Below are positions 35,513-51,387 of a stretch of 64,000 nucleotides of DNA, piece by piece. Origin of the DNA: Aestuariivirga litoralis (GTDB lineage: Bacteria > Pseudomonadota > Alphaproteobacteria > Rhizobiales > Aestuariivirgaceae); the NCBI RefSeq assembly GCF_003234965.1, contig NZ_QKVK01000001.1, forward strand, positions 372,001 to 436,000, in the 5' to 3' direction. Position numbers and translations under genes: made by a program. Position 1 is the stretch's first letter. Each line of letters starts with the position of its first letter. The notes below the pieces were generated by a model. It made no database searches. It saw nothing but the letters and a program-made list of their open reading frames with translations, and was not told where the DNA came from.

Positions 35513-36430
35513 TCATCCCGCATGCCGCCTGTACCAGTCCACAGTTTCCGCTAGGCCCCGGGGCAGCTCCACCTGCGGACGCCAGCCGGTATCGGCGCAG
35601 AGCCGCGCGATGTCGGCCTGCATGAACATGATCTGGCCCGGGCCGAACGGCCGCTCGCCGAACACCAGCTCGAGCCCGGGTGCGGCGAGGTCGCGGATCA
35701 TCGTCGCCACATCGCGTACCCTGACGGCCTGTCCTGATCCAAGGTTGTAAATCCCCGCAGCGCGGGTGGACAGCACCGCCGCCAGCACACCCTCGGCGGC
35801 ATCATCGACGTGGAGCCAGTCCCAGCTCTGTGTACCCGCCGTCATCTCCGGCCGCCTTCCGGCCAGCATCTCGCGGATCAACATGGGAATCAGCCAGCAG
35901 TCGTTGTCGCCCGGGCCATAGGCCGAGAACAGCCGCAGCCAGACGTGGCGCATGGCGTTCTGCCGGGCGATCTCGCGGGTGAGGAAATAGGCCGCCACCT
36001 TGCTGGCGCCATAGAGCGTCACCGGTTGCGGCAGGCTGTCCTCGTGGCGCGGCCCCTCGGGGCCGTATTCGCCCTGGCTGCCGATGCCGGCGAAGCAGCC
36101 GACACCCGCCGCCGCCGCTGCCCGCGCCACGGCGCAGCTCATCGCCAGATTGCCGTCGAGCTGCGCGCGCGCGCCGTGCTCGGTGTTGCGCACCCCCTCC
36201 CACGCCAAATGAATGACGGCATCCGGCTGGTGCTCGACGAGCGCCGCCGCCAGCGCCGCCTCGTCGCGGAGGTCGAGGTCGAGCCGCTGCAGCGGGCCTG
36301 CCAGCCCGTCGAGGCGCGGGGTCGGCCGCCCGGCGCGGCAATGCGCCACAACGGCATGGTTCCGGCGCAGCGCGGCACGCACCGTGGCAGCGCCGACAAA
36401 GCCGGAGGCTCCGGTGATGAACAGCTTCAT
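35513..36430 (-). CDS. NAD-dependent epimerase/dehydratase (extended SDR)
   Basis: A 305-residue nucleotide-sugar enzyme. The NAD loop FITGASGFVGAA is at residues 4-15, the catalytic YGASK near 140-144, and the ends SWDWLHVDDAAEGVLAAV and GIYNLGSGQAVRV are standard for the family. It would epimerise, dehydrate or reduce a nucleotide-linked hexose; it could supply the reductase step for the CDP-sugar made by the divergent operon. Its ATG overlaps the stop of the membrane-protein gene by four bases. The exact substrate is not shown. Confidence 0.85.
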   Translation of the reverse strand: MKLFITGASGFVGAATVRAALRRNHAVVAHCRAGRPTPRLDGLAGPLQRLDLDLRDEAALAAALVEHQPDAVIHLAWEGVRNTEHGARAQLDGNLAMSCAVARAAAAAGVGCFAGIGSQGEYGPEGPRHEDSLPQPVTLYGASKVAAYFLTREIARQNAMRHVWLRLFSAYGPGDNDCWLIPMLIREMLAGRRPEMTAGTQSWDWLHVDDAAEGVLAAVLSTRAAGIYNLGSGQAVRVRDVATMIRDLAAPGLELVFGERPFGPGQIMFMQADIARLCADTGWRPQVELPRGLAETVDWYRRHAG

Positions 36431-37779
36431 GGCCGCGACCCGTCTGCCGGGCGCCGCCGTGGCGGCACCGCCGACACCACCAGAACCACCAGCAGGGCAG
36501 AGGTGGTGAAGAAGGGCAGCCGCGCATCGGCGGCATTGCCCATGGCGACGAGGCTGGCGAAGTAGCTGGCCCCCGCGGCATAGAGCACGACCACCTCGCC
36601 GGATGACCGGCGGCGCCACATGGCGAGGGCCAGGGCGGCGGTGGCCACGGCATAGATGAACCACGGCCGGTAGACGAGCCAGCTCGAGGCGCTGAACACA
36701 TGCGCCACCACCCTGTCGCGCAGCGGCGAGGCGGCCAGCTGATAGCCATATTCGTTCTTGTCGATGGAGGGCGCGGTGATGAGGAACTGTCCGCCGCGGT
36801 TGGCCCCGGTGAGATAGGCCGCCAGCTGCAGCTTGTTGGCCAGCGCGCACACCGGGTGGTGCAGCAGCATGTCGCGCCACGGCGCATCGACGCGCGCATC
36901 GGAGCCGGTCCGCGCCAGCAGCCCCGGCGACAGGTTGATGTGCCGCCCGTCATAGAGCTTCGCCACGTCGGTGATCGACAGCGACGGGTCGAGCGGCTTC
37001 AGCAGGTTGCGCTTCAGACACAGGCTGGCGCCGGCAAGGTCGAGAACGCGCACCGAGCGGATGAAGAAGGCGGTACTGTCCGGCAGCGGTGTCAGGCTGG
37101 GGAGGGAATAGCGGTCGAGCGCCGTCTTCGCGCCGAAGCTCACCGCGATCATCACCGCGGCGAGTCCGGCGGCCGCCATCATGCGCCACCTTCTGGAACC
37201 GGTGATGCGCTCCGCCACCGCGAAGCCCAGCAGAATGAAGAGCGGCACCGCGCCGGCCACGGCATTGTGGCGCGTCGCCACCCCGATGGCGATCAGCAGC
37301 AGCGCCAGCAGGCCGAGGAATCCGGCGCCAGCGGCGCTGGTCGACCGGCGCATCAGCAGCGTCGCGGCATAGCCGGCAAAGAAGAAGGCGGCCATCAGCA
37401 CATCCTTCCAGATCACCGCCACCGTTCCGAGGATCACGGGAACGCTGAGATAGGCCGGCAGGAACAGGGCCGCCTGCACGAGCCGCCCGCTCAGCACCGC
37501 GACGATGGTGAACAGCGCCGCGAACAGCAGGAAGAGCTGGGCCACATGCATGGCCGAGGGGTTGGTCGAGACCTGGTCCACCGCCCGCCAGATGTAGCTC
37601 ACCATGGGTGGCCACATCGAGTCGGTCACGCCGCTGCGGGCGCTGCGCAGGGCATGCAGCGTGTCATAGGACATGAATCCCGGATAGAACAGCCATGCCA
37701 CCGCCGCGGTGACCAGCCCCGCCACCAGCAGCGTCAGCGCCGCGCGCGCCAAGGCGCCCTCGCCGCCAGCCCCCCTCAT
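36427..37779 (-). CDS. polytopic membrane protein, probable GT-C-type glycosyltransferase
   Basis: A 450-residue inner-membrane protein with about ten hydrophobic segments. It was not assigned to a known family, but YPGFMSYDTLHALRSAR in the first external loop, followed by AVIWKDVLMAAFFFAG and TRHNAVAGAVPLF, resembles bacterial GT-C-fold membrane proteins that use polyprenyl-linked sugars, in which an acidic residue of the first loop is catalytic. A soluble stretch of about 110 residues (225-335) is probably periplasmic. The operon context (epimerase, GtrB-like enzyme) supports glycan transfer. It overlaps the next gene by four bases. Confidence 0.7.
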   Translation of the reverse strand: MRGAGGEGALARAALTLLVAGLVTAAVAWLFYPGFMSYDTLHALRSARSGVTDSMWPPMVSYIWRAVDQVSTNPSAMHVAQLFLLFAALFTIVAVLSGRLVQAALFLPAYLSVPVILGTVAVIWKDVLMAAFFFAGYAATLLMRRSTSAAGAGFLGLLALLLIAIGVATRHNAVAGAVPLFILLGFAVAERITGSRRWRMMAAAGLAAVMIAVSFGAKTALDRYSLPSLTPLPDSTAFFIRSVRVLDLAGASLCLKRNLLKPLDPSLSITDVAKLYDGRHINLSPGLLARTGSDARVDAPWRDMLLHHPVCALANKLQLAAYLTGANRGGQFLITAPSIDKNEYGYQLAASPLRDRVVAHVFSASSWLVYRPWFIYAVATAALALAMWRRRSSGEVVVLYAAGASYFASLVAMGNAADARLPFFTTSALLVVLVVSAVPPRRRPADGSRP

Positions 37780-37806
37780 GCACCGCGTCTCCGGTACGGC
37801 ACTGCG

Positions 37807-40377
37807 TCAGTCATGGTTAGCTCCCTGCTGTCCGGGGTGCGGCACCAGGGCCGCGAATTCGATCAGGCCGGCGAAGGGCCGTCCCCGCTTCATGAAGTCG
37901 CCGAAGCTGAGGGGAACGTCCGGCGGGCCCTTCACCTGCGCATTCGCCACAGTCATTTCGCTCACTGTCCTGCCATCCAGCGTCACCGTGAAGTGGTCGC
38001 CCTCGGCATGCACCACCAGCCGTGACAGGCGCCCCGGCGGGATGATGAAGGGCTTGCTGGCGTGCCAGCGCTCTCCATCGCCCACCGCCAGCGAATAGTA
38101 GCCGTTGCTGCGCGGCAGGTGATGAAGCGTGAAGCCCCGGAAGTCGTAACTGTGGTTGGACACGATGGTGGCATAGGGCCCCTGCTCTGGCTCCGGGGCA
38201 ACGGTCATGATGATGTCGAAGCCACCGGCCGGAACCGGCTCGTGCAGGTCGAGGGGCAGCTGAACCGGCCGCTGCCAGCGCTGCCACAGGCGGCCGCCCT
38301 GTTCGGCGAAGACGATGGTCTGCGGCGGCGGGCAGCTGGGCCCGGCGCAGCTCAGGTGGCGCTCGAACAGGTCAGGCGCCGGCGAGGGCTCGCGGACGAG
38401 ATGCATCATCTCGCCGTCCGGGCTCCAGTTCTTCAGGCTGTAGATCGCCCGCAGCCGTGGCAGGGCATCACGGATCCATGATGCGGTGTTGAGCCAGTAG
38501 GGCTGGTTTTCGACCAGCCGGTAATCGATGAACAGGTGCGGCGGCCGGGTGTCGAGCAGGTAGTCGATATAGGCCGCGGCATCCTTGCGCAGCAGCGTCT
38601 CGGCGATGCCTGGCCCACCATAGCCCGCGCGGTGCCTCGCCTCTGCGGCGAGCACCGGCTGGTCGATGCCGATCACCTCATATGCCTCCCCGTCGCTCTC
38701 CTGCGCGATGAAGCCCGGCAGGCCGGGCTCCGCCGGGGCGGCGGCCTGCAGGATCGGCTGCCATCGCGTCGCGGCCGTCTCGGCCAGTAACGGCGCGCCC
38801 GGGACGCCGATGACGGCGGCGAGGCCGATCCACAGCAGGGCGGTGGCGCGGCCGATGAAGGCCAGGCTTCGACTCGCATCCTTGCCGGTTGCGCCGGTCA
38901 GCCGGTCGAGCAGTCGCGCCGCCACCACCACGGCCGGCCACATGCAGAGCAGCAGCGTGTTGGGATGCGAGCGCCCAACGTGGTAGCTCACCAGCCCGGC
39001 GCCGAGGATCGCGGCATAGAGCGTCAGCATCGCCTCGCGGTTCCAGCCCTTGCTCAGGTCAAGCGCGGCGAGCAGCACGCCGAGCAGCAGCACCGCCGCG
39101 ACCGCGACCCAGAGTGCCGGCAGCCCCTGCAGCGGCAGCATCATGAAACCCTCCGCCGCGAAGATGCGCGGATAGGCCATGAGCTGCAGCAGCTGCGGCG
39201 GGCTGCCGCCCTTCCACGCCAGCAGCAGGATGAAGGCGGCGCCGGCGGCGAAGGCGCCAGCGAAAAAGGCAGCGGCAAAGCCTGCGGCGCGCAGCGCCGG
39301 CATCCCGCCGCGCAGCGCCAGCGGTGTTGCTGCCACCAGCAGGGCGAGCGCCAGCAGCACCACGCTGCCGCTGTCCGGATTGAACATCACGGCAAGGCTG
39401 CCGAAGGCGCCGAGCCATGCTGCGCGGGCAGCGCCGGCCCGCGCGGTGAACCACATTGCCAGCGCCAGGCTCAGCGCCGGGAACAGCAACCGCAGCGGCC
39501 CGTACTGGAAATAGGGGTCGGTCACCCCGACCAGCACCCAGTTCTGCAGCAGGATCAGCCACAGCCCCGCCGCCAGCAGCACCAGCGGACTGCGCACGAG
39601 GCGGCCTGCGAACACCAGGATGCTGACCAGCGCCGCCGACTGGAGCAGCGCCGTCAGCAGCGTGGCATTGAGTACATTGAGCCCCGCCAGCTTCAGCAGC
39701 GGCGCATAGAACTCGCCATAGCAGCCATATTGCGGCACGACCCCGATGGTGCAGCTCGCGCCCAGCGAGATCTGCACGATCGAATAAAAGAATGCACTGA
39801 AATGCGGCATGAACGGCACGCTGTCGATCGACCTGACGTCGAACACCCGCGTCGCAAAGCACAGCAGCACCGACGTGATGCACAGGCCCGCAAGCACCAG
39901 GCGATGCAGCATCGCCGCACTCCGCATGGAAGGAACGAGGCCCGCAGCGCCCCCCGCCGCGGCCGCCAGCGCCAGCACGCCGGTCGCCGTGAGCACCCGC
40001 CAATCGACATTGAACAGGGTGGCGATGTCATCCCGCGCCACCGCCCATGCGGCAAGCCCGAGGCCCGCCAGCAGCAGCAGCACGTCGCCGGGCCGCGGAC
40101 GGGCTTCCGCTGCCATGGCGCGCGTCAGCCACAGGCCCAGCGCCACGGCAAGCGGCGTTACGAGCAGCAGGGCAAGATAGGCGCTCCACTCGCGCGGCTC
40201 GGGGCGGAACTGGTCGGGGCTGGCGGCGACGATCTGGCTGGCGAAGGCGCCCCCATCCGGCAACACCGCATCAGGCGTGATCCACCACGCACCAAGCACG
40301 CCCGCCACCGCTGCGGCCGCGGCGATGAGGAAGGCAAGGCCGGGGCGTGAGATCGGAGAACGACGGACGGACAGCAT
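37807..40377 (-). CDS. large membrane protein with C-terminal beta-sandwich-like domain
   Basis: An 856-residue protein and the first gene of the leftward operon. About 14 hydrophobic segments lie in residues 1-570, with a loop holding PFMPHFSAFFYSIVQ and the cysteine-bearing ASCTIGVVPQYGCYGEFYAPL. After this comes an extracytoplasmic region (AEARHRAGYGGPGIAETLLRK), and the last 120 residues (TIVSNHSYDFRGFTLHHL, HFTVTLDGRTVSEMTV) look like a LamG/concanavalin-A-type beta sandwich that could bind sugar. The layout suggests a GT-C glycosyltransferase with a glycan-binding end. The ATG at 40377 begins a normal membrane protein; the open frame further upstream is low-complexity. Confidence 0.65.
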   Translation of the reverse strand: MLSVRRSPISRPGLAFLIAAAAAVAGVLGAWWITPDAVLPDGGAFASQIVAASPDQFRPEPREWSAYLALLLVTPLAVALGLWLTRAMAAEARPRPGDVLLLLAGLGLAAWAVARDDIATLFNVDWRVLTATGVLALAAAAGGAAGLVPSMRSAAMLHRLVLAGLCITSVLLCFATRVFDVRSIDSVPFMPHFSAFFYSIVQISLGASCTIGVVPQYGCYGEFYAPLLKLAGLNVLNATLLTALLQSAALVSILVFAGRLVRSPLVLLAAGLWLILLQNWVLVGVTDPYFQYGPLRLLFPALSLALAMWFTARAGAARAAWLGAFGSLAVMFNPDSGSVVLLALALLVAATPLALRGGMPALRAAGFAAAFFAGAFAAGAAFILLLAWKGGSPPQLLQLMAYPRIFAAEGFMMLPLQGLPALWVAVAAVLLLGVLLAALDLSKGWNREAMLTLYAAILGAGLVSYHVGRSHPNTLLLCMWPAVVVAARLLDRLTGATGKDASRSLAFIGRATALLWIGLAAVIGVPGAPLLAETAATRWQPILQAAAPAEPGLPGFIAQESDGEAYEVIGIDQPVLAAEARHRAGYGGPGIAETLLRKDAAAYIDYLLDTRPPHLFIDYRLVENQPYWLNTASWIRDALPRLRAIYSLKNWSPDGEMMHLVREPSPAPDLFERHLSCAGPSCPPPQTIVFAEQGGRLWQRWQRPVQLPLDLHEPVPAGGFDIIMTVAPEPEQGPYATIVSNHSYDFRGFTLHHLPRSNGYYSLAVGDGERWHASKPFIIPPGRLSRLVVHAEGDHFTVTLDGRTVSEMTVANAQVKGPPDVPLSFGDFMKRGRPFAGLIEFAALVPHPGQQGANHD

Positions 40378-40696
40378 GAAGCGCAGGATACCTTGGCGAT
40401 CGGTTTGCGTCCGTGCTCCTGCGCGCGCATGCCTCTGGCCAAAGCTCCACGCTGGGTCGCAGCGGGTGTGCCGTTCGTCATCGCGCGCCGCGGCAGGACA
40501 AGGACGGCGTTCGCGGTAGCCATAGTCGCTCTCCCCGCCGCCGTCATCCGCCGCATGCGGCCGCAACCGCGTCATCCACCATCTGCTGCAGACCGGCGGC
40601 AAACGGGCGTATCTGCAAACTTAAGTTGGTAGCCGCGTCGGGGCATGTACCACATAAAGCGCTTTTTGCTATTCAGCATGGGGCATCGGCAGCAAG
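40378..40696. other. divergent intergenic region of the polysaccharide locus
   Basis: These 319 bases separate the first genes of the two divergent glycan operons. No convincing gene is seen; the short open frames here are arginine/alanine-rich and lack ribosome sites. Bases 40600-40690 are less GC-rich (AAACTTAAGTTGG, CATAAAGCGC, TTTTTGCTATTC) and probably hold the rfbF promoter, but no clear -35/-10 pair could be fixed. The leftward promoter must lie near 40390-40500. Confidence 0.45.
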
Positions 40697-41467
40697 GTGG
40701 TTCAAGTCGTCATTCTGGCAGGTGGCCTCGGCACCCGCATCAGCGAGGAAACGCTGGTCAAGCCAAAGCCGCTGGTGGAAGTGGGCGGCCGTCCCATCCT
40801 CTGGCACATCATGAAGTCCTATGCGGCGCACGGCATGAACGAGTTCATCATCTGTGCCGGCTACAAGGGCCACCTGCTCAAGGAATTCTTCGCCAACTAC
40901 GCGCTCCACATGTCGGACGTGACCTTCGACCTCGCCAGGTCCGAAATGGCGATCCACCGCAACGACGCGGAGGACTGGCGGGTGACCATCGTCGACACCG
41001 GCGAGCGCACCATGACCGGGGGCCGCCTCGCCCGCGTGCTCGACCGGATCGAGGGCGACCGCTTCTGCCTGACCTATGGCGACGGCGTGAGCGACCTCGA
41101 CATCGCCGCGACGCTGCGCTTCCATGACGCCCATGGCGGGCTCGCCACCGTCACCGCCGTCTATCCGCCGCGCCGCTTCGGTGTCCTTGACCTCGACGGC
41201 GACCGGGTACGCGAGTTCCGCGAGAAGCCGCATGGCGAGGGCGGCTTCATCAATGGCGGGTTCTTCGTGCTGTCGCCGAAGGTCGGCGCCTATCTCGACG
41301 GCGACGACACGGTGTGGGAACAAGCGCCGCTGCAGCGCCTCGCGGCGGATGCCGAGCTCTTCGCCTACCGCCACGAGGGCTTCTTCCATCCCATCGACAC
41401 GCTGCGCGACAAGATTTACCTCGAGCAGCTGTGGGACAGCGGGCGCGCCCCGTGGAAATCATGGTGA
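40697..41467 (+). CDS. rfbF: glucose-1-phosphate cytidylyltransferase
   Basis: A 256-residue nucleotidyltransferase making CDP-glucose from CTP and glucose-1-phosphate, the first step to CDP-3,6-dideoxyhexoses. It begins with the nucleotide-binding VVILAGGLGTRISEET and has KPKPLVEVGGRPILWHIM, LTYGDGVSDLD and FINGGFFVLSP, all typical of RfbF/DdhA. The start is GTG at 40697 behind AAGG. It overlaps rfbG by seven bases and is the first gene of the rightward operon. Confidence 0.95.
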   Translation: MVQVVILAGGLGTRISEETLVKPKPLVEVGGRPILWHIMKSYAAHGMNEFIICAGYKGHLLKEFFANYALHMSDVTFDLARSEMAIHRNDAEDWRVTIVDTGERTMTGGRLARVLDRIEGDRFCLTYGDGVSDLDIAATLRFHDAHGGLATVTAVYPPRRFGVLDLDGDRVREFREKPHGEGGFINGGFFVLSPKVGAYLDGDDTVWEQAPLQRLAADAELFAYRHEGFFHPIDTLRDKIYLEQLWDSGRAPWKSW

Positions 41468-42543
41468 CCCCGCGCTTCTGGCAGGGGCGCCGCGTGTTCA
41501 TCACCGGCCACACCGGCTTCAAGGGGGCGTGGCTGGCCTTCCTGCTCAGCGAGATGGGGGCCGAGGTGTCGGGCCTCGCCCTCCCGCCCGAAGCGGGGCC
41601 GAACCTGCATGACATGCTGGGCATCGCGCAGCGCGGCCACTTCGTCCATGCCGATATCAACGACCGCGCCGCGCTGAACGCCGCCCTGGCGCGCAACCAG
41701 CCGGAGGTGGTCCTGCACCTCGCGGCCCAGGCGCTGGTGCGCGCCTCCTACGCCCGGCCCGCGGAGACCTTCGCCGTCAACGCCCTGGGTTCGGTGAACC
41801 TGCTGGACGCCGTGCGCGGCTGTGATGGGGTGCGGGCGGTGGTGATGGTCACCACCGACAAGGTCTACGAGAACCGCGAATGGCCCTGGGCCTACCGCGA
41901 GACCGACGAGCTTGGCGGGCATGATCCCTACAGCGCCAGCAAGGCCTGCGCCGAGATCGCCGTGAACTCGATGCGCCGCAGCTTCTTCGGACCGGGGCGC
42001 CACCCGGCGCGCATCGCCAGCGCGCGGGCCGGCAATGTCATCGGCGGTGGCGACTGGGCGGCCGACCGGCTCATCCCCGACATCATCCGCGGCTGTGCCG
42101 GTCCCTCCGGCACCGTCACCCTGCGCAATCCCCACGCGGTGCGGCCGTGGCAGCACGTGCTCGAGCCGCTCTGCGCCTATCTCGTGCTGGCGGAGCATCT
42201 GTGCGAAGGCCGTGAGGGCTGCGAGGGTGCCTGGAACATCGGTCCCTCGGCGCAGGACGCGCGCCCGGTGATCGAGGTGGCGCGCCGCATGGTCAGCGCC
42301 CTCGGGCGCGGCCGCATCGACGTGGCGAGCGATCCCGCGGCCCCGCACGAGGCGGGCCTGCTCACCCTCGACTGCGCCAGGGCGCGCAGCCGGCTGGGGC
42401 TTGGAACGCTGTTCAGCCTCGACGAGGCGATCGGCCTCACCGCCGACTGGTATGGAGCATGGATGAGACGCGAGGACATGGTGGCCGTGACGCGGGCCCA
42501 GATCGGCCGGATCTCCGGCCTGCAGCCGGCGGCGCTGGCATGA
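41461..42543 (+). CDS. rfbG: CDP-glucose 4,6-dehydratase
   Basis: A 360-residue extended SDR that converts CDP-glucose to CDP-4-keto-6-deoxyglucose. The NAD loop [16 protein letters not shown] has the GFKG variant seen in this enzyme. [13 protein letters not shown] holds the dehydratase's Thr-Asp-Lys triplet and YSASKACAE the catalytic Tyr-x3-Lys. [20 protein letters not shown] and [13 protein letters not shown] are diagnostic for the CDP-glucose enzyme. It is translationally coupled on both sides (overlaps of seven and four bases). Confidence 0.96.
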
Positions 42544-43880
42544 GCGATCATCACCTTGCCGAGATCGCCGCCCTGCGCCGCCAGATCCTCGCGCTGTCGG
42601 AGCGCTATGCCATGCTGGCCCACGGCCCGAAGCCCTTCGTGCCCGGTGCAAGCCCGGTGCCGCCGGCGGGAAAGGTGCTGGGCGCCGCCGAGATGCGCAA
42701 CCTCGTCGACTCGGCGCTCGACTTCTGGCTCACCACCGGGCGCTTCAACGCACAGTTCGAAAGCCAGCTGGCGCGCCAGGCGGGCGTGCGCCGCGCGCTG
42801 GCGGTGAACTCCGGCTCGTCTGCCAACCTGCTGGCGGTCTCGGCGCTGCTGTCGCATGAACTGGGCAAGCGCGCCCTGCGGCCGGGCGACGAGGTCATCA
42901 CCTGCGCCACCGGCTTCCCGACGACGGTGAACCCCATTCTCCAGAACGGCCTCGTGCCGGTCTTTCTCGATGTCGAGCTCGGCACCTACAACATGGACGT
43001 GAGCCGCCTCGAGGAGGCGCTGAGCCCGCGCACCCGCGCGGTGGTGCTGGCCCATGCGCTGGGCAATCCCTTCGACCTCGCGGCCGTCACCGCCTTCTGC
43101 CGCAAGCATGGCCTGTTCCTGGTCGAGGACTGCTGCGATGCACTGGGCGCGAGCTATGGCGGGCGCCAGGTCGGCACCTTCGGCGAGCTGGCCACGCTGT
43201 CCTTCTATCCCGCCCATCACATCACCATGGGCGAGGGGGGTGCAGTGCTGTGCAGCACCACGCGCTTCAAGAAGATCGTCGAGTCGCTGCGCGACTGGGG
43301 CCGCGACTGCTATTGCGAACCGGGCAAGGACAACACCTGCAACAAGCGCTTCGCCTGGCAGCTGGGCGAGCTGCCCCCGGGCTACGACCACAAATACACC
43401 TACTCCCACCTCGGCTATAACCTGAAGATCACCGACATGCAGGCGGCCATCGGCGTGGCGCAGCTGGCACGGCTCGACGGTTTCGTGGCCGCCCGCCGCG
43501 CCAACTGGCAATACCTGCGCGACGGGCTCGCCGATCTCGAGGACGTGCTGATCCTGCCGCGCGCCACGGACGGCAGCGAGCCCTCGTGGTTCGGCTTCTG
43601 CATGACGCTGCGCCCCGGCGTTCCGATCGACCGCGAGGACCTGCTGCGCTGGCTGAACGACGAGCGCAAGGTCGGAACCCGCCTGCTGTTCGGCGGCAAC
43701 CTGCTGCGCCAGCCCTACATGAAGGACCGCCCGCACCGCGTCGCCGGGCCGCTCGAGGGCAGCGACGTGGTGATGAACCGCAGCTTCTGGACCGGCGTCT
43801 ACCCCGGCCTCGGCACCGACCAGCTCGACTACATGATGGACAGCCTCCGCCACTACATCCGCGCCCGGGTCTCGCCATGA
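42540..43880 (+). CDS. rfbH: CDP-6-deoxy-4-hexulose 3-dehydrase (E1)
   Basis: A 446-residue PMP-dependent iron-sulfur enzyme that removes the C3 hydroxyl of CDP-4-keto-6-deoxyglucose. It has the aminotransferase DegT fold, but the usual PLP lysine is replaced by His227 in [14 protein letters not shown], the hallmark of E1. Cysteines of the [2Fe-2S] site lie in [17 protein letters not shown]1 works with a reductase, E3 (RfbI/DdhD), which is not in this window. It overlaps rfbG and the thiamine enzyme gene by four bases each. Confidence 0.95.
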
Positions 43881-45643
43881 CGGGCGCCGAATACATCGCC
43901 GCCTTCCTGGCGCGTGCCGGCTGCCGCCATGTCCACGCCATGACCGGCGGTGCCTGCGCCTTCATGCTCGATGCGGTGGGCCGCCACCCGGCGCTGGAGC
44001 TCGTCTGCTTCCAGCACGAGCAGGCGGCCGCCATGGCGGCGGATGCCGTGTGGCGCGTCAGCCGCCGGGTCGGCGTCACCATGGCCACCTCCGGGCCCGG
44101 CGCCACCAACCTCATCACCGGCATCGCCTGTTCCTTTTTCGATTCCATTCCGAGCCTTCACATCACCGGCCAGGTCAACCAGCGCGAAAGCAGCGCGGTG
44201 CACGGCGCAAAGGTCCGCCAGTCGGGCTTCCAGGAAACCCGCATCGTCGACATGGTGCGCCCGGTGGTGAAATACGCCGTGCTGGTGCGTAACGTGGAGG
44301 AGTTGCGCCGCGAACTGGCGAAGGGCCTCGCCATCGCGCTGTCAGGCCGCATGGGCCCGGTGCTGATCGACGTGCCGATGGACGTGCAGCAGGCCGAGAT
44401 GCCCGACGACATGCCGGAGGCCGCGCCCGTGACGAGACCCGATCCGGCCCCTGCGGCGGCGGCGGCAGAGGCGCTCGGCGCCACGCTGGCGGCGGCGCGC
44501 CGGCCACTGGTGCTGTGGGGCGGCGGGGTCAACATGGCCGGTGCGGCACCAGCCCTGGCGCGCTGGCTGGCGCAGTCCGGCCTGCCCTTCGTCGCCAGCT
44601 GGGCGGGGCTCGACGGCTTCGACCACGCCATGCCGGGCTTCCTCGGCCAGATCGGCGTCTATGGCAACCGCGGCGCCAATTTCGCGCTGCAGAACGCCGA
44701 TACGGTGATCGTGCTCGGCAGCCGCCTCGACAACCGCCAGCGCTCCGGCAACCCCGCCAATTTCGCCACCGGCGCCACCGTCCACGTCTTCGACGTCGAC
44801 CCGGCGGAACTGCAGAAATACGGCGGCGCCTACCGTACCACGGAGATCGACCTCCAGCTCCTCCCCGAAATCCTCGCAGCGGTCCAGGCCCCGCCCGTCG
44901 CGGCCGACTGGCAGGACTACCTCCGCACCATGAAGGCCCGCTACCATGGCCGCGAGACCAGCAGCTCGGCGCTTCGCCTCAACAGCCTCAGCCCCTATGA
45001 CGTGGTGCGCCGCATACGCCACCTGATCGCGCCGGATGCCATCGTCGCGGCCGACACGGGCGCCGCCCTGTGCTGGCTCTACCAGGCCTTCGAGGTGTCG
45101 CGGCACCGGCTGTTCACGGCGGGCGGCAATTCGCCGATGGGCTATGCGCTGTGCGCCGCCATCGGCGCCAAGCTCGAGGCGCCGGAGCGCCAGGTCGTGT
45201 CCTACAACGGCGACGGCGGCTTCCAGGTGAACCTGCAGGAACTTGAAACCGTGCGCCGCCTCGGCCTCGACATCGCCATCGTGGTCATGAACAACGGCTC
45301 CTATGGCATCATCAAGCAGTTCCAGGACAGCTATCTCGGCGGCCGCTACACCGGCTCGCAGCTGGGCTACAGCGCCCCGGACTTCGGCCGCATCGCTGAG
45401 GCCTATGGCATCCGCCATGCCCGCGTCGAAAGGCTGGAGGACATGACGCCGGACCTCTTCCGCAACGGCCCGACCCTGATCGACGTCATCCTCAGCGACC
45501 AGACGCTGATCGAGCCCAAGCTCGAGATGGGCCGGCCGATCAACGACCAGTATCCCTATCTCGCGGATGAAGACTACGCGGAGGGCAACCGCTTCGTCGC
45601 CTATCCGCGGCCGCCGGGCTTTGCCGGGGGGCGCCGCAGCTGA
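43877..45643 (+). CDS. thiamine-diphosphate enzyme, acetolactate-synthase-like (YerE-type candidate)
   Basis: A 588-residue ThDP enzyme with three domains. The N-terminal Pyr domain carries the activating glutamate in [14 protein letters not shown] and [13 protein letters not shown]. The middle domain (about 190-340) has [12 protein letters not shown] and [10 protein letters not shown] and could hold FAD, as in acetolactate synthase. The C-terminal PP domain has the ThDP/Mg motif [13 protein letters not shown] ... NNGSYG. Its place after rfbFGH strongly recalls YerE of Yersinia, a flavin/ThDP enzyme that attaches a two-carbon unit from pyruvate to CDP-4-keto-3,6-dideoxyglucose. A plain acetolactate synthase is unlikely in this context, but the substrate is inferred. 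Confidence 0.85.
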
Positions 45644-45683: not shown

Positions 45684-46112
45684 ATGACCGCGCCGCGCGA
45701 GTGGGCCTCGCCGGAGGCCTGGCGCATCCTGCGTTTCCTGCTGGTGGGTGGCCTCAACACGGTCTTCGGCTTCGCCGTCTACGGCCTCGGCCTGGCGCTG
45801 GGGCTGGCGCCCGAAATCGCCCTTGCGGTGGCCTTCGTGGTTGGCGTCGCCTTCAACTTCCTCACCACCGGGCGCATCGTCTTCCGCCAGTCGCGCCTCG
45901 GCCTGCTGCCGCGCTTCATCGCCGTCTATTGTGCCGTCTATGTCATGAACGCGCTGGCCTTGCGCGGGCTCATCGAGGCCGGGTTGTCGCCCCTCGTGGC
46001 GCAGCTCATCCTGCAGCCGCTCAGCGCGGCGCTGACCTATCTCCTGTTCCGCCACTTCGTCTTCACGCCGGACGCATCACCTGCCGGCGGCCCGCCGCGC
46101 AGGCGCCCATGA
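45684..46112 (+). CDS. GtrA family membrane protein
   Basis: A 142-residue protein with four hydrophobic helices (about 14-32, 38-57, 74-95 and 102-120). The pattern RFLLVGGLNTVFGFAVYG, then FNFLTTGRIVFR and LFRHFVFTP, is the GtrA signature. GtrA proteins are thought to flip undecaprenyl-phosphate-linked sugars across the inner membrane in O-antigen and arabinogalactan modification. A GtrB-like glycosyltransferase is encoded at 34.4 kb in the same locus. It begins 40 bases after the thiamine enzyme gene and overlaps the next gene by four bases. Confidence 0.9.
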   Translation: MTAPREWASPEAWRILRFLLVGGLNTVFGFAVYGLGLALGLAPEIALAVAFVVGVAFNFLTTGRIVFRQSRLGLLPRFIAVYCAVYVMNALALRGLIEAGLSPLVAQLILQPLSAALTYLLFRHFVFTPDASPAGGPPRRRP

Positions 46113-49100
46113 GCGAGCAGAGCACGGCGGCGCGCGCCATCGACACCCGCTACGGCCAAATCTTCATCCCCGCGGGCGCCGACCTCATCAGCGATTCGCT
46201 CCGTCTCTACGGCGAGTGGGCGCAGAACGAGATCGACGACCTCTTGGCATTCATCCGCCCCGGCGACACGGTGCTCGATGTCGGGGCCTGTTTCGGCACC
46301 CACAGCCTGGCATTCGCCACGCAGGTCCGGCCTGGCGGCCGCGTCATCGCCATCGAGGCCGCGCCCGAAACCTTTGCCCTGCTCGCGCAGACGGTGCAGG
46401 CCTCGCCAGACGCCGGCAACATCACCCTGCTCAATGCCGCGGCCACCGACTCGGCCGGGGCGCGTTTCACCATCCGCCGGGCGGACGGCAATGCCGGTGG
46501 CAACCAGCTCGAGCCCGCAGCCGACGGCGGCGTGCCGGCCATCACCCTCGATGCGCTTGATCTCGCCGCGGCGAGCTTCATCAAGCTCGACGTGGAAGGC
46601 ATGGAGGCGGCCGCCCTGCGCGGCGCGGCGGGGCTCCTGCGGCGCGCCCGCCCCGTCGTCTATTGCGAACTCAACGCCCTGGCGCCGGGGCTCGACGTCA
46701 TGGCCGAACTCCTCCGCCATGACTATCGCTGCTTCGGCCACATTGCGCCGGCCTTCAACCCTGCCAATCGCAATGCCCACGCCACCAACATTTTCGGTGA
46801 TGCCGCGGAGTGCGGCGTGCTGGCCATCGCGGCGGAGCGGGTGGAGAGCCTTGCCGGAACCATGGCGAAGCGCCGCCGGCTGATGGCGCTCGGCGACGCC
46901 GACGACCTCGCAGCCCTGCTCCTGCAGAAGGAGCAGTACCGCCGCCAGCTGATGGAGGCCTTTGCCACCGCCACTGCCCCGGTGGCGCAACAGGTGCCTG
47001 CCGATCCCCGGGAGGCAGCCGTGGCGCGCGAGGTGGAGGCCATCCGCCCGTTCTTCGATGCCGCCTTCTACCGCGCCCGCAATCCGGATGTGGCCGAGAG
47101 CGGCATGCCGCCGGAAGAGCATTTCTGCCGCAGCGGGTGGAAGGAGCAGCGCGACCCCGCGCCCTGGTTCTCGGTCCGCCACTATCTCGGGACCAACCCC
47201 GATGTCGCCGCCGCCGGCATCAACCCGTTCCACCACTACCTGGTCTCCGGCCGGCAGCGCGGGCTCCTGCCCCGGCCACCCGACGACGACGCCCGGATCG
47301 CAGCGGAGGCTGCGGCGATCCGCGAGTCCTTCGATGCCGCCTATTACCTCGCCTGCAACCCCGACGTCGCCGCCAGCAGCCAGCCGCCCGAGGAGCACTT
47401 CTGCCGCACCGGCTGGCGTGAGCGGCGCGACCCCGCGCCATGGTTCTCCGTCGGCTTCTACCTCGACACCTACCCGGACATTGCCGCGGCCATGGTCAAC
47501 CCGTTCCAGCACTATCTGGCATCGGGCCGGCATCGCGGCCGCCTGCCCCGCGCGCTTGACGAACCGGCGCGGATCGCGCGCGAAGTGAAGGTCATCGCAG
47601 CAGAGTTCGATGCCGCCTTCTACCTCGCCCGCAACCCCGGCGTCGCGGCCTCGGGCCTCTCTCCGGAGGCGCATTTCTGCGCCATCGGCTGGCGCCAGCG
47701 CCGCGATCCCGCCCCATGGTTCTCGGTGTCGCTCTATCTCGATACCTACCAGGACATCGCCAGGGCCGGCGTCAACCCGTTCTACCACTACCTGCTGTCG
47801 GGGCGGGACGAAGGCCGCGTCGGGCAGCGCCCCGTCACGCCACCCGCCGCCCTGCTGCGCAAGCTCGTGCCGCTGGAGCAGACGGTTAGCCGCTGGCGGC
47901 GCGACGGGCCAGCGGACCTCCTCACCGCCGGGCAGCTGGCCGGCCTGCTTCAGGAGCGCCGCGCCGCAGGCGCCGGCCGGCTGATGATCTCGGTGAGCCA
48001 CGACGACTACACCAGCATCACGGGCGGCGTGCAGCATTGCATCCAGCTCGAACAGAAGGCCGCCGCGGAAGACGGCTGGCTCTACCTGAACCTCCATCCC
48101 TGGCAGCCGCTGCCCCGTCTCGCGCATGCCACCGATGACCCCGACCCAGCCGTTTCGCTGGTGCTGGCGGGAGAACCTCTCGGTGCCGCACCGTCCTCCG
48201 CCGTCGTCGCGGCGGTGCGCGCCGTCGCGGCGGATTTCACGGCGCTCGCCACGGTCATTCACCAGTTGCTCGGGCACAGCGCGGAGGCCATCGCCGGGCT
48301 TGCCATGGCGGGCGGCGAAACCTGGCTCTGGCTGCATGACTTCGTCACGCTCTGCCCCAGCGCCCATCTCCAGCGCAACGGCATCGCCTTCTGCGGCGGC
48401 CCCGCACCGGGTTCCAACGCCTGTTCCCTCTGCCTCTATGGCGCGGAGCGGGCCCGCCACCTGCCGCGCATGACGCGGCTCTTCGAGACCGCGGCGCTCA
48501 ACGTCGTGGCCCCCTCCGGCTATGTCGCGGAGCTGTGGTCCCGCCGGGGCGGGTTTGCCGCCGCCAGTCTCCGGGTGCACCCGCACATGAGGCTGCAATG
48601 GCAGGGCAGTGCGCCGGCCGATGCGCCTGCGCCGGAAGCGGTGCGGCCCCTCGTCATCGCCTTCGCCGGCGTGCCCTCGGTGCACAAGGGCTGGCTCGAA
48701 TTCTGCGAGCTGGCCGCCGCCGCACGGGCCGAGGCGCTGCCCGCCACCTTCCTCTATCTCGGCTCATCCGCCATCGACGCCGCCGGGGTAAACGCGATCA
48801 GTGTCCAGGTCAGTGGTGACGACCATGATGCGATGATCCGCGCCATGCGCGAGCAGCAGGTCGACGTGCTGCTGCACTGGCCTGCGGTTCCGGAAACCTT
48901 CTCCTTCACCACCCACGAGGCGCTTGCCGGCGGTGCGCTGGTCATCACCAATCCCGACAGCGGCAATGTGGCCGCCACCGTGCGCCACACCGGGCGGGGC
49001 CTCGTCCTCGACACGCCGCGCGACCTGCTCGACGCCTTGCGTGACGGGCGCCTGCTCAGCTTCGTGAGTGGCTTCCGGCGTGAACGTCCGTACGAAACGG

Positions 49101-49159
49101 TGCTGGTGGAGCGCAGCCGCATGACGCTGGACCTCGTCGGCGCGGGAGCAGGCCAATGA
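46109..49159 (+). CDS. FkbM methyltransferase - three tandem repeats - glycosyltransferase fusion
   Basis: A 1016-residue multidomain cytosolic protein. Residues about 1-240 are a FkbM-type SAM methyltransferase (VLDVGACFGTHSLAFA at 55-70, FIKLDVEGMEAAALRG near 166). Residues about 316-572 contain three repeats of exactly 92 residues, each with NPDVA, HFC, GW, RDPAPWFS and NPF.HYL.SGR. Residues about 600-1016 form a GT4-like glycosyltransferase (ISVSHDDYTSITGGVQH, FAGVPSVHKGWLEF, PETFSFTTHEALAGG, the last being the donor-binding E-x7-E region). Such repeats are known to me from rhizobial surface-glycan genes but have no named function. It probably adds and O-methylates sugars on the same glycan. 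Confidence 0.85.
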   Translation: MSEQSTAARAIDTRYGQIFIPAGADLISDSLRLYGEWAQNEIDDLLAFIRPGDTVLDVGACFGTHSLAFATQVRPGGRVIAIEAAPETFALLAQTVQASPDAGNITLLNAAATDSAGARFTIRRADGNAGGNQLEPAADGGVPAITLDALDLAAASFIKLDVEGMEAAALRGAAGLLRRARPVVYCELNALAPGLDVMAELLRHDYRCFGHIAPAFNPANRNAHATNIFGDAAECGVLAIAAERVESLAGTMAKRRRLMALGDADDLAALLLQKEQYRRQLMEAFATATAPVAQQVPADPREAAVAREVEAIRPFFDAAFYRARNPDVAESGMPPEEHFCRSGWKEQRDPAPWFSVRHYLGTNPDVAAAGINPFHHYLVSGRQRGLLPRPPDDDARIAAEAAAIRESFDAAYYLACNPDVAASSQPPEEHFCRTGWRERRDPAPWFSVGFYLDTYPDIAAAMVNPFQHYLASGRHRGRLPRALDEPARIAREVKVIAAEFDAAFYLARNPGVAASGLSPEAHFCAIGWRQRRDPAPWFSVSLYLDTYQDIARAGVNPFYHYLLSGRDEGRVGQRPVTPPAALLRKLVPLEQTVSRWRRDGPADLLTAGQLAGLLQERRAAGAGRLMISVSHDDYTSITGGVQHCIQLEQKAAAEDGWLYLNLHPWQPLPRLAHATDDPDPAVSLVLAGEPLGAAPSSAVVAAVRAVAADFTALATVIHQLLGHSAEAIAGLAMAGGETWLWLHDFVTLCPSAHLQRNGIAFCGGPAPGSNACSLCLYGAERARHLPRMTRLFETAALNVVAPSGYVAELWSRRGGFAAASLRVHPHMRLQWQGSAPADAPAPEAVRPLVIAFAGVPSVHKGWLEFCELAAAARAEALPATFLYLGSSAIDAAGVNAISVQVSGDDHDAMIRAMREQQVDVLLHWPAVPETFSFTTHEALAGGALVITNPDSGNVAATVRHTGRGLVLDTPRDLLDALRDGRLLSFVSGFRRERPYETVLVERSRMTLDLVGAGAGQ
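47054..47824 (+). repeat. three in-frame 276-base tandem repeats
   Basis: Units start at 47054, 47330 and 47606, each exactly 276 bases apart and in frame, encoding the repeated FDAAFY ... HYL.SGR.RG segments of the fusion protein. Each unit has two half-repeats (Y-x4-NPDVA and YL-x3-P/NPDIA), so the array is a repeat of repeats. Units differ at many bases, so the duplication is old. Confidence 0.9.
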
Positions 49160-50223
49160 CCGTCTACGCCTTTTCCAGCTTCACCTTCAGCCAGCTCGGC
49201 CGCGCCCGCGTGCTGGCACGCACGCTGAAGGCGCTGCACCCGGACTGGAAGCTGTGGGCCGTCATCACCGACCGGCCGCCCGAGGGTTTCGTCTTCGATC
49301 CCCCGGCCGAACAGTTCGACGGGCTGCTGACGGCGGAGGAACTGATCGGCGAGGAAGCCGGCCAGTGGCTCTTCGGCCATGACATCGTCGAGGCCTGCGC
49401 CGCGGTGAAGGGCCCCGCCATGGCCAGGCTCATGGATTTTCCGGATTGCGAGAAGCTGTTCTTCTTCGATCCGGACATCGCCCTGTTCAACACCATGGAC
49501 GAGGTGGTCGGGCTGCTCGATCAGCACGCCGTGGTGCTGACGCCGCACCAGGTCGACCCGGAACCGCGCGCCGCGCGCATCGCCATCAGGGACAACGAGA
49601 TCGCCTCGCTGGCCCATGGCGTGTTCGATCTCGGTTTCATCGCCGTCGCCAACGATGCGGAGGGACGCCGCTTCGCCCATTGGTGGCGTGACCGCCTGCT
49701 CGACTGGTGCCACGACAACCACGCGGACGGCCTGTTCGTCAACCAGAAATGGTGCAACCTGGTGCCCTGCCTGTTCGACCGGGTGAAGGTGCTGCGAGAT
49801 CCCGGCTACAACGTTGCGAGCCGGAACCTCAGCCAGCGCCGCATGAGCTTCGACCCCGCGGGGCAGGCTCTGGTCAACGGCCATCCGCTGCGCTTCTTCC
49901 ATTTCACCGGGCAAGGCCCCGCCGCCGAGGTCAAGACGCAGGGCCATGCCGGCGCCAGCATCGAGATTCATGAGCTCTGGTGGTGGTACGGCCGCCAGAT
50001 CGCCGAAGCCGCCGCGCCGGAGATTCCGGCAGGCTGGTGGCATTACGGGCACTTCGACAATGGTGTGCCCATCCCGCGCGAGGCCCGCCACCTCTATCGC
50101 CGCCGCGCCAGCCTGCGCATGGCCTTCCCGCGCCCCTTCGCCACCGCGGGTGAGTCCTACTTCCTCTGGCTGCAGTCGCAGGCCGGCGATGGCGCGCAGC
50201 CTGCGGCGCCCGCCGGTGGCTGA
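49156..50223 (+). CDS. glycosyltransferase with DxD motif (GT8-like)
   Basis: A 355-residue soluble glycosyltransferase. It starts with a Rossmann-like strand (VYAFSSFTFSQLGRARVLARTLKALHPDW) and has FFFDPDIALF with Asp105 and Asp107 forming the DxD metal site. HGVFDLGFIAVAND and FVNQKWCNLVPCLFD follow, as in GT8 and related glycogenin-like enzymes. A histidine in FFHFTGQG is a typical late ligand. The donor and acceptor are unknown. It overlaps the preceding fusion gene by four bases and is followed by the acyltransferase. Confidence 0.85.
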   Translation: MTVYAFSSFTFSQLGRARVLARTLKALHPDWKLWAVITDRPPEGFVFDPPAEQFDGLLTAEELIGEEAGQWLFGHDIVEACAAVKGPAMARLMDFPDCEKLFFFDPDIALFNTMDEVVGLLDQHAVVLTPHQVDPEPRAARIAIRDNEIASLAHGVFDLGFIAVANDAEGRRFAHWWRDRLLDWCHDNHADGLFVNQKWCNLVPCLFDRVKVLRDPGYNVASRNLSQRRMSFDPAGQALVNGHPLRFFHFTGQGPAAEVKTQGHAGASIEIHELWWWYGRQIAEAAAPEIPAGWWHYGHFDNGVPIPREARHLYRRRASLRMAFPRPFATAGESYFLWLQSQAGDGAQPAAPAGG

Positions 50224-50277
50224 GCGTGCATGCAGCGCGCTGGACAAGGCCATCGCCAGCGCATATCAGCCCTTGCC

Positions 50278-51387
50278 ATGCTGCGAACCGTAGAGAGCCG
50301 CTTCTATCCAGAGCTCGAGGGCCTGCGGGGAATAGCCAGCCTCAGCGTGCTCATCGGCCACTGCTACCTGCACGCCTTTCCCACCGCCAATTACCTGGGG
50401 CCGGACCTGGCCTGGCTGCACACGCTGATCGGCGGCGTGTTCAACCCGCAGCCGGCCGTGCTGCTGTTCTTCGTGCTCAGCGGCTTCGTGCTCGGCTGCC
50501 AGCTGGAGCGCACGCCGGTCCGCGGGCCGCAGGACTATGCGGGCTATCTGCTGCGCCGCCTGTTCCGCCTGCTTCCGGCCACCTGGGTGTCGCTCGTCAT
50601 CGCCCTCGCCTTCGCCTATGGCATCGGCTACGGCGACTTCCGGCAGTTCCTCAAGGCGGCCGTGCTGTGGGACTTCACGCTGAACATCGTCATCTGGACC
50701 ATGTACATCGAGGTCACCGGCAGCATCCTCATGCCCTTCATGGCGCAGGCGGCGAGCCGCGGCGGCGCACTGCTCAGCGCCGTGGTGTTCGGCCTGCTGC
50801 TGCTGGCCTGCATCCTGCTGCAGCAGCCGCTCGCCCTGCCCTTCATGGTGTTCTTCTATGCCGGGCTCATGGTTTCCTATGTGCCCCGCAGCTTCATCGC
50901 GCTGATGCAGGGTCCGGCCGGCCTCGCCGCGGGCGCCGTCGCCGTGGTGCTCTATGTCTGGTCGCCCGAGATCGCTGCGGGTGAGGCGCGCGACTGGCTC
51001 TACTGGCGCTGGAACAACTGGATGTGGCTGGAGATCCCGGCCTGCTTCCTGCTCGTCTACCTGGTGGCGCAGCGCCGCTTTGCCGGCGTCTCGAAACTCC
51101 TCGACACCAACGTCGTGCGCTTTCTCGGCCGCATCTCCTTCAGCCTCTACCTGCTGCACTATCCGCTGCTGCAGTTCCTCACCATCAAGCTGGCCCAGTG
51201 GGGCTACAGCCCCGAGACCGTGACGAGCCTTGGCGGGCGCACGCTGATGTTCGGCTTCAAGGCCGGCATCGTGCTCGCCCTGTCGGTGCCGCTCGCCTGG
51301 CTGTCCTACACCTTTGTCGAAAGGCCGGGGATCGAGATGGGGCGCCGGCTTGCCGGGGCGCTGGCGGCCAGGCCGCGCGCGGCCTGA
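50278..51387 (+). CDS. acyltransferase family 3 (OafA/YrhL-like)
   Basis: A 369-residue inner-membrane O-acyltransferase with about ten helices, transferring acetyl or acyl groups to surface sugars. The catalytic-site pattern R-x10-H is in LRGIASLSVLIGHCYLH. GFVLGCQLER and LLRRLFRLLPATWVSL are further family marks, and SFSLYLLHYPLLQFL is the conserved late helix with its histidine. ATG at 50278 gives the typical start SRFYPELEGLRG; an ATG at 50230 is also open, and neither has a clear ribosome site. It ends the rightward polysaccharide operon and converges with gapR. Confidence 0.88.
   Translation: MLRTVESRFYPELEGLRGIASLSVLIGHCYLHAFPTANYLGPDLAWLHTLIGGVFNPQPAVLLFFVLSGFVLGCQLERTPVRGPQDYAGYLLRRLFRLLPATWVSLVIALAFAYGIGYGDFRQFLKAAVLWDFTLNIVIWTMYIEVTGSILMPFMAQAASRGGALLSAVVFGLLLLACILLQQPLALPFMVFFYAGLMVSYVPRSFIALMQGPAGLAAGAVAVVLYVWSPEIAAGEARDWLYWRWNNWMWLEIPACFLLVYLVAQRRFAGVSKLLDTNVVRFLGRISFSLYLLHYPLLQFLTIKLAQWGYSPETVTSLGGRTLMFGFKAGIVLALSVPLAWLSYTFVERPGIEMGRRLAGALAARPRAA

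Follow-up and report, generated by a model that had tools for sequence, protein, structure and literature searches.

A single gene in the window, by which we mean the whole 64,000-nucleotide stretch of Aestuariivirga litoralis DNA analysed here (assembly GCF_003234965.1, contig NZ_QKVK01000001.1, positions 372,001 to 436,000), joins an FkbM-type methyltransferase to a GT4-like glycosyltransferase (GT) through three pairs of a short repeat. The open reading frame (ORF) runs from an ATG at 46109 to the stop at 49159 and encodes 1016 residues with zero internal stops. We propose, tentatively, that the repeat array serves recognition, probably of a glycan, and is carried by the glycosyltransferase, onto which a methyltransferase of the pathway was fused. 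What is new is the unnamed repeat and its use; the enzyme parts are already known.

The initial annotation of this DNA described three in-frame repeats exactly 276 bases apart, each with two half-units around NPDVA-like cores, and both points were confirmed. The 272-nucleotide copies start at 47030, 47306 and 47582 (spacings of exactly 276 and 276), and copies 2 and 3 are 76% and 66% identical to the first, compared to 0.33 +/- 0.03 (maximum 0.41) for the other in-frame offsets of the gene (912 offsets) and a best in-frame identity that never exceeded 0.456 across 500 codon-shuffled genes. At the protein level, pairs 1 and 3 share 63% identity over 76 residues (E 1e-36), and the half-unit cores of the three pairs read NPDVA/NPDVA, NPDVA/YPDIA and NPGVA/YQDIA. 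The same annotation spoke of a 92-residue repeat; this is correct for the spacing, but the evolutionary unit is 38 residues, and a 92-residue copy consists of 38 + 37 residues and a 17-residue linker. The six units lie at residues 316-353, 354-390, 408-445, 446-482, 500-537 and 538-574, with the consensus F-D-x3-Y-L-x2-N-P-D-V-A-x8-H-Y-x3-G-x2-E-G-R-x-P. In relatives, the start-to-start spacing is exactly 38 residues for 289 of 426 successive units, and two-unit runs account for 108 of 217 runs (counts in which the window gene and locus L002 each appear twice, as L001/L003 and L002/L004). Unbroken arrays without linkers, of eight units in L014 and six in L012, identify the 38-residue segment as the unit.

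In glycosyltransferases of this type, two units form one functional pair. Repeats were counted in homologues, as the initial annotation had suggested, for 45 distinct ORFs that encode this type of GT and have two units or more, a set that takes in the window gene and about six members with weak GT scores. The number is even in 42 of them (two units in 19, four in 17, six in four, eight in one and ten in one) and odd in three. For a GT score above 300 bits the number is even in 38 of 39 ORFs. Many of the relatives come from Phenylobacterium and they do not represent independent lineages, so these counts are descriptive. The longest paired arrays follow the same design as the window protein, with pairs about 89–98 residues apart, one wider gap excepted; nine pairs were found in L271, five in L267, and four each in L265 and L266. 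The longest one seen is that of L271 (3479-9469), a 1997-residue protein in which the nine pairs (18 units) precede domains that look GT2-like by eye.

Structure prediction of one pair with its linkers, from an alignment of 129 rows (the 3 window segments plus 126 of 176 candidate segments), yielded a confident all-helical model (predicted local distance difference test score, pLDDT, 92.9; predicted template modelling score 0.82) with about three short helices per unit. Residues Y17, D23, H34, G39, E42 and R44, and their second-unit counterparts Y55, D61, H72, G77, E80 and R82, are conserved in 89–100% of the 129 rows. The initial annotation could name no function for the repeat, and indeed none of the 129 pair segments matched a Pfam or NCBIfam family at E 0.01. 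A Foldseek comparison of the pair model with the PDB returned no chain at E 10, and among PDB sequences no credible relative was found (best E 0.51 in a profile search). A missing structural match is no proof of a new fold, as short repeats are often missed. Judged by the predicted model, the repeat represents a distinct unnamed helical module without a named family in the libraries searched. Two candidate identities were rejected as chance: TY-Chap3 (PF22552), which covers 43 residues of pair 2 with 26.3 bits against a cut-off of 27 and matches 0 of 129 segments at E 0.01, and a single weak PHROGs match, in L022, among six proteins compared. As a lead only, the viral structure library BFVD contains 19 weak matches to the pair model (best E 9.5e-3, TMq 0.19–0.41), six of which are named glycosyltransferase; 16 of the 19 are from viruses that we take to be giant viruses (Fadolivirus, Hyperionvirus, Harvfovirus, Indivirus). 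No description of the repeat was found in the open PMC literature by motif and term searches, which is not proof of its being unpublished.

Both end domains agree with the methyltransferase–repeat–glycosyltransferase fusion that had been annotated. The N-terminal domain passes both curated FkbM cut-offs (TIGR01444, 80.1 versus 37.7 bits; PF05050, 63.8 versus 22.7) and has an intact S-adenosylmethionine (SAM) motif, DVGACFG, at residues 57-63, with KLDVEG at residue 159. From the family match and the SAM-binding motif it is predicted to be a SAM-dependent O-methyltransferase. It differs from most other FkbM matches, which occur in ORFs of about 290–450 residues, in that a repeat array and a GT follow in the same chain. 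For the C-terminal part, residues 621-1016, the AlphaFold2 model displays a GT-B fold, with PglA (8dvz) as the best alignment (Z 21.3, root-mean-square deviation 3.7 over 308 residues, 13% identity) and a practical tie at Z 20–21 between the top matches PglA, WaaG, WbnH and PimA (10–17% identity). The E-x7-E motif, typical of retaining GT4 enzymes, is present at residues 929-937. This part thus has a predicted fold and a motif in common with GT4/GT-B enzymes, but its scores against the Pfam GT models are below the gathering cut-offs (PF13692, 18.7 versus 27; PF00534, 15.6 versus 26.4); 7 of the 31 members of the GT-protein alignment match PF13692 at E 0.001. Prediction of the full fusion, also suggested initially, was a partial success: the GT-B fold was recovered, but the FkbM part was unusable (pLDDT mostly <50), probably since this domain is present in only 5 of the 31 alignment rows. 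The full-length model further contains two low-confidence helices, 237-260 and 264-289, in the region that in relatives contains a coiled-coil-like stretch.

The repeat occurs far beyond this gene. A tblastn search of 72,556 plasmid records revealed the repeat in 117, and the profile search that the initial annotation had advised, carried out with the pair, gave matches in 25 of the 289 genomes sampled from the class, own genome included. A profile scan of contigs led to 79 loci retained out of 353 confirmed stretches, mostly from Alphaproteobacteria, the others being from Halomonas, Thiocapsa, Methylobacter, Burkholderiales, Desulfovibrio, an Acidobacteriaceae metagenome-assembled genome (MAG) and a Bacteroidales MAG. 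By these sequence matches, the repeat is common and well conserved across Alpha-, Beta- and Gammaproteobacteria, Desulfovibrio, and Acidobacteriaceae and Bacteroidales MAGs.

Proteins with at least two units, other than L001, L003 and L004, were classified by the position of the array. In 44 proteins the array ends at most 60 residues from the C-terminus, and the Pfam domains found in them are RTX (18) and, in a few proteins each, M10 peptidase, subtilase (S8), phytase, lipase and others; some members of this class (L011, L033) resemble, by eye, coiled-coil proteins of glycan loci rather than secreted proteins. Another 44 (out of a set of 45, one short L023 ORF being left out) have N-terminal, internal or end-truncated repeats, together with GT2 (15), GT4 (11), WbsX (9) or RTX (7) domains. 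A similar picture emerges from 24 of the 25 positive sampled genomes (all except G190), for which at least 84 repeat ORFs were listed: 35 have three or more RTX motifs, with the repeat at either end, and the other 49 include GT4 (8), GT2 (8), RTX (6), RgpF (4), FkbM (1, the window gene) and Methyltransf_24 (1). A role as type I secretion signal was considered and rejected, as RTX-type proteins also carry the repeat N-terminally (by motif count, e.g. L170, L174, L175, L209, L210, L211 and L228), and glycosyltransferases carry it too.

Several single occurrences deserve mention. Besides the fusion protein, the own genome yielded a single repeat protein, L002 217-1893 (contig C20, near 249498), with about two units, one of them clearly above threshold, followed by a WsaF-type GT. 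Repeat relatives are encoded by 25 IMG/VR contig loci (L142-L166), and a 14.4-kb faecal phage record (MT836085.1) has ten repeat-like places, all unannotated. On an IncY mobilizable plasmid of Enterobacter hormaechei (L011 2756-7580), repeat pairs are found on two adjacent proteins, 3' of ABC transporter and 'sugar transporter' genes.

In most glycosyltransferases of the window type the array is at the very N-terminus: no more than 150 residues separate the upstream stop from the first unit in 36 of the 45 ORFs (window included), and the same is true of 32 of the 39 ORFs whose GT score exceeds 300 bits. As ORFs were read from stop to stop, these upstream lengths are upper bounds, and the sequence ahead of the first unit looks non-coding in L016, L082 and L094. 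An N-terminal array in 36 of 45 ORFs leaves little room for a second enzyme, and a spacer is therefore not its general role. The initial suggestion that the repeat sets the distance between two active sites consequently does not hold as a general role, also in view of the 44 proteins with C-terminal arrays, but it may hold in particular fusions.

The link with FkbM recurs outside the window. An FkbM ORF abuts the repeat–GT ORF directly 5' on the same strand in L037 (Gluconacetobacter), L264 (of the same order) and L093 (a Devosia MAG), those of L037 and L264 ending in a coiled-coil-like tail, and an FkbM gene is the divergent neighbour of a repeat–GT gene in L058 and L073 (Gluconobacter). A second fusion of FkbM to three pairs is found in L261, from another family of the order; this 1455-residue protein consists of FkbM, a coil-like stretch, three pairs, and GT2-like (by eye) and weak GT4-like parts. 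In L262 and L263, through a coiled-coil-like stretch, and in L039, through one pair, the same GT type is joined to a shared N-terminal part, which we presume from a motif to be sulfotransferase-like, an assignment that the PDB search did not confirm (no match with the L262 N-terminus). The coiled-coil and sulfotransferase-like labels used here were all assigned by eye. A recurring S-x-W-R/K-like motif, perhaps membrane-facing, was noticed by eye after the coiled-coil-like stretch in L037, L262, L263 and L264.

Other methyltransferases are also fused to repeats and GTs, namely Methyltransf_24 in L014 (its GT2 part being just below the cut-off) and L080, and Methyltransf_11 in L059 and L091. The Wzt_C domain (PF14524) was found in three of the four genomes or records of these non-FkbM fusions (L014, L091 and L059), and in all three the ORF of the Wzt_C ATPase abuts the fusion gene or is located one ORF before it (L014 3246-7899, L091 2352-8633, L059 100-8147). 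By analogy, L014, L059 and L091 are candidate WbdD-like terminators with repeat arrays. Elsewhere, the Wzt_C cut-off was passed in 3 of 16 other repeat-bearing genomes or records, and the contig of L262 carries Wzt_C at a distance of about 6 kb. In contrast, Wzt_C gave no match in any of the six genomes searched in which FkbM and a repeat–GT are fused or neighbours (window, G585, G644, L037, L093 and L058), of which one is a MAG (L093) and three have no stated completeness; the L073 genome was not part of this set. The counts of export families in the window genome are Wzt_C 0, ABC2_membrane 1 and Wzy_C 3. The lack of Wzt_C matches in these FkbM-linked genomes leads us to regard the window protein, with modest confidence, as a decorating pair of activities rather than a chain terminator.

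The nearest comparison is with the WbdD-type terminators. According to published accounts, a coiled-coil ruler in WbdD holds the capping methyltransferase away from the polymerase (PMC11231755, PMC3482155), which WbdD also recruits (PMC11231755); a kinase domain is present in the O3/O9a WbdD, while O5 chains end in methyl only (PMC11231755). ORF6 of Klebsiella O7 is described there as combining a methyltransferase, a coiled coil and two GT modules in one chain, and a Klebsiella terminator as having a predicted carbohydrate-binding domain of no assigned purpose between methyltransferase and coiled coil (PMC11231755). The window protein resembles the terminators of E. coli O9a and of K. pneumoniae O7 (ORF6), as far as they are described in these sources, in having a methyltransferase, an elongated helical middle and a GT in one chain or complex (PMC11231755, PMC3482155). 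It differs from WbdD in its FkbM-type methyltransferase, its repeat pairs, the absence of a kinase family match (Pfam, E 1) and of a Wzt_C match in the genome, and there is no long coiled coil in its low-confidence model.

We weighed several explanations. In the favoured one, two genes of a single surface-glycan pathway have been joined, one for an FkbM O-methyltransferase and one for a 'repeat–GT4' glycosyltransferase. The array would dock most probably the acceptor glycan and keep it, or else the site of assembly, at the GT, and the fused FkbM domain could then methylate the same sugar chain. Since the genes just upstream specify CDP-glucose synthesis, 4,6-dehydration, RfbH and a YerE-like enzyme, the chain in question probably includes a branched 3,6-dideoxy sugar. 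Binding of the growing glycan, put forward in the initial annotation, thus remains the best reading, with indirect support from the neighbours of the repeat elsewhere, which are mostly glycan-building enzymes and RTX or extracellular proteins; the nature of the ligand is our deduction. Several observations weigh against glycan recognition. FkbM is fused in only 2 of the 45 GT-type ORFs (window and L261), and GT relatives without the repeat exist (L262, L263 and L269, 384–425 bits), so that this GT type can do without the module. In a given sampled genome, either most repeat proteins are RTX-type (G206, G287, G088) or most lack RTX motifs (G212, G342 and the window genome), and a ligand shared within one cell is therefore not supported. 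Pairing is looser among proteins with C-terminal repeats, where 13 of 44 arrays are odd-numbered, and is thus not universal, and the invariant polar residues could be purely structural.

A rather unlikely alternative is that the array is a ruler or spacer, a rigid arm that holds a chain-capping methyltransferase apart from a chain-extending GT, comparable to the WbdD coiled coil in O-antigen length control. Fusions of methyltransferase, repeat and GT indeed recur with three methyltransferase families (Methyltransf_24, Methyltransf_11 and FkbM), three of the four non-FkbM cases adjoin or lie one ORF after a Wzt_C ATPase ORF, and Klebsiella O7 ORF6, as outlined in the source cited, has the corresponding layout with a coiled coil (PMC11231755). 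In one GT lineage, moreover, the sulfotransferase-like N-terminal part is attached through one pair in L039 and through a coiled-coil-like stretch in L262 and L263, and the L262 genome has the nearby Wzt_C. A spacer, however, needs both of its ends occupied, which is at odds with the N-terminal arrays in 36 of 45 GT-type ORFs and the arrays close to the C-terminus in 44 proteins, and Wzt_C gave no match in the window genome and the five further FkbM-linked genomes. Short helical repeats commonly bind proteins, and docking to a protein or membrane, by which the array would recruit the enzyme to a glycan-assembly partner and secreted proteins to a surface protein, is likewise unlikely in our view. 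Coiled-coil-like stretches border the repeat itself or occur in the neighbouring FkbM gene (L014, L037, L264 and L261) and speak for docking, being reminiscent of the polymerase-recruiting WbdD as presented in the source cited (PMC11231755). Under this view, cytoplasmic GTs and RTX or extracellular proteins would have to share partners, whereas a single glycan ligand, produced in the cell and exposed on its surface, explains both locations, which is an argument only. Least probable, and in our opinion very improbable, is a lineage-specific expansion of a structural domain in which copy number has no functional weight. Pairs are more alike within than between several proteins (ungapped identity 0.68 versus 0.38 for the window protein, 0.75 versus 0.39 for L014), so that copies were duplicated or homogenised; in L265, L266, L267 and L268, on the other hand, pairs within a protein are as divergent as between proteins (0.22–0.28, ungapped values that small shifts may lower), suggesting that multi-pair arrays have been kept for long, and the polar residues are conserved across loci of several phyla.

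If the repeat binds a glycan, this would explain the retention of secreted proteins on the cell, it would offer a handle on the acceptor choice of the GT, and the number of pairs would be a countable 'dose' for how chain length or modification is set. A wider version of glycan recognition, which is speculative and in our judgement doubtful, would see the 38-residue repeat as a surface-glycan address module on both sides of the envelope, used within the cell by cytoplasmic enzymes that build or modify the glycan and outside it by secreted proteins (RTX proteins and hydrolases) docking on the finished glycan, and in some ABC-exported systems replacing or extending the WbdD ruler.

Coordinates of the fusion gene, its parts and the neighbouring genes are listed below.

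Features of the fusion gene and of its surroundings (positions in the window)
Feature	Position	Strand	Remarks
Whole fusion gene	46109..49159	+	1016 aa: FkbM methyltransferase – helical segment – 3 repeat pairs – GT4-like glycosyltransferase
FkbM (Methyltransf_21) domain	46277..46732	+	residues 57-208; DVGACFG 57-63; KLDVEG at 159
Predicted helical segment	46817..46975	+	residues 237-289; low-confidence model; relatives have coiled-coil-like stretch there (by eye)
Repeat pair 1	47054..47278	+	units 1A 47054-47167, 1B 47168-47278
Linker 1	47279..47329	+	17 residues, predicted helix
Repeat pair 2	47330..47554	+	units 2A 47330-47443, 2B 47444-47554
Linker 2	47555..47605	+	17 residues, predicted helix in full-length model
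Repeat pair 3	47606..47830	+	units 3A 47606-47719, 3B 47720-47830
GT-B / GT4-like glycosyltransferase	47969..49156	+	residues 621-1016; E-x7-E residues 929-937 (48893-48919)
Glucose-1-phosphate cytidylyltransferase	40697..41467	+	TIGR02623, 409 bits vs 300
CDP-glucose 4,6-dehydratase	41470..42543	+	TIGR02622, 452 bits vs 278
RfbH-type 3-dehydrase	42459..43880	+	NF011936, 708 bits vs 423; true start probably later than 42459
Thiamine diphosphate (ThDP)-dependent enzyme, acetolactate-synthase type	43868..45643	+	all listed NCBIfam matches below cut-offs; YerE-like by context only
GtrA-type membrane protein	45684..46112	+	PF04138
355-aa protein	49156..50223	+	overlaps fusion-gene stop codon; no Pfam or NCBIfam match
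Acyltransferase 3	50230..51387	+	PF01757

Further upstream, at 36427-40602 on the minus strand, two long ORFs (450 and 931 residues) without Pfam or NCBIfam match are found beside a GT2 gene. The genes for the glucose-1-phosphate cytidylyltransferase, the CDP-glucose dehydratase, RfbH and the ThDP enzyme form one cluster (40697-45643) directly 5' of the GtrA gene. Together, CDP-glucose synthesis, 4,6-dehydration, RfbH and YerE make C-branched 3,6-dideoxy sugars. The cluster is a candidate for a branched-sugar pathway of the yersiniose type, on the basis of its enzyme families, which are those of yersiniose-type CDP-3,6-dideoxyhexose pathways with YerE and are encoded directly upstream of the fusion gene; it differs from these pathways in that its ThDP enzyme is YerE-like by context and by broad acetolactate-synthase homology. 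YerE itself is reported to make the branch of yersiniose A in lipopolysaccharide (PMC12247030).

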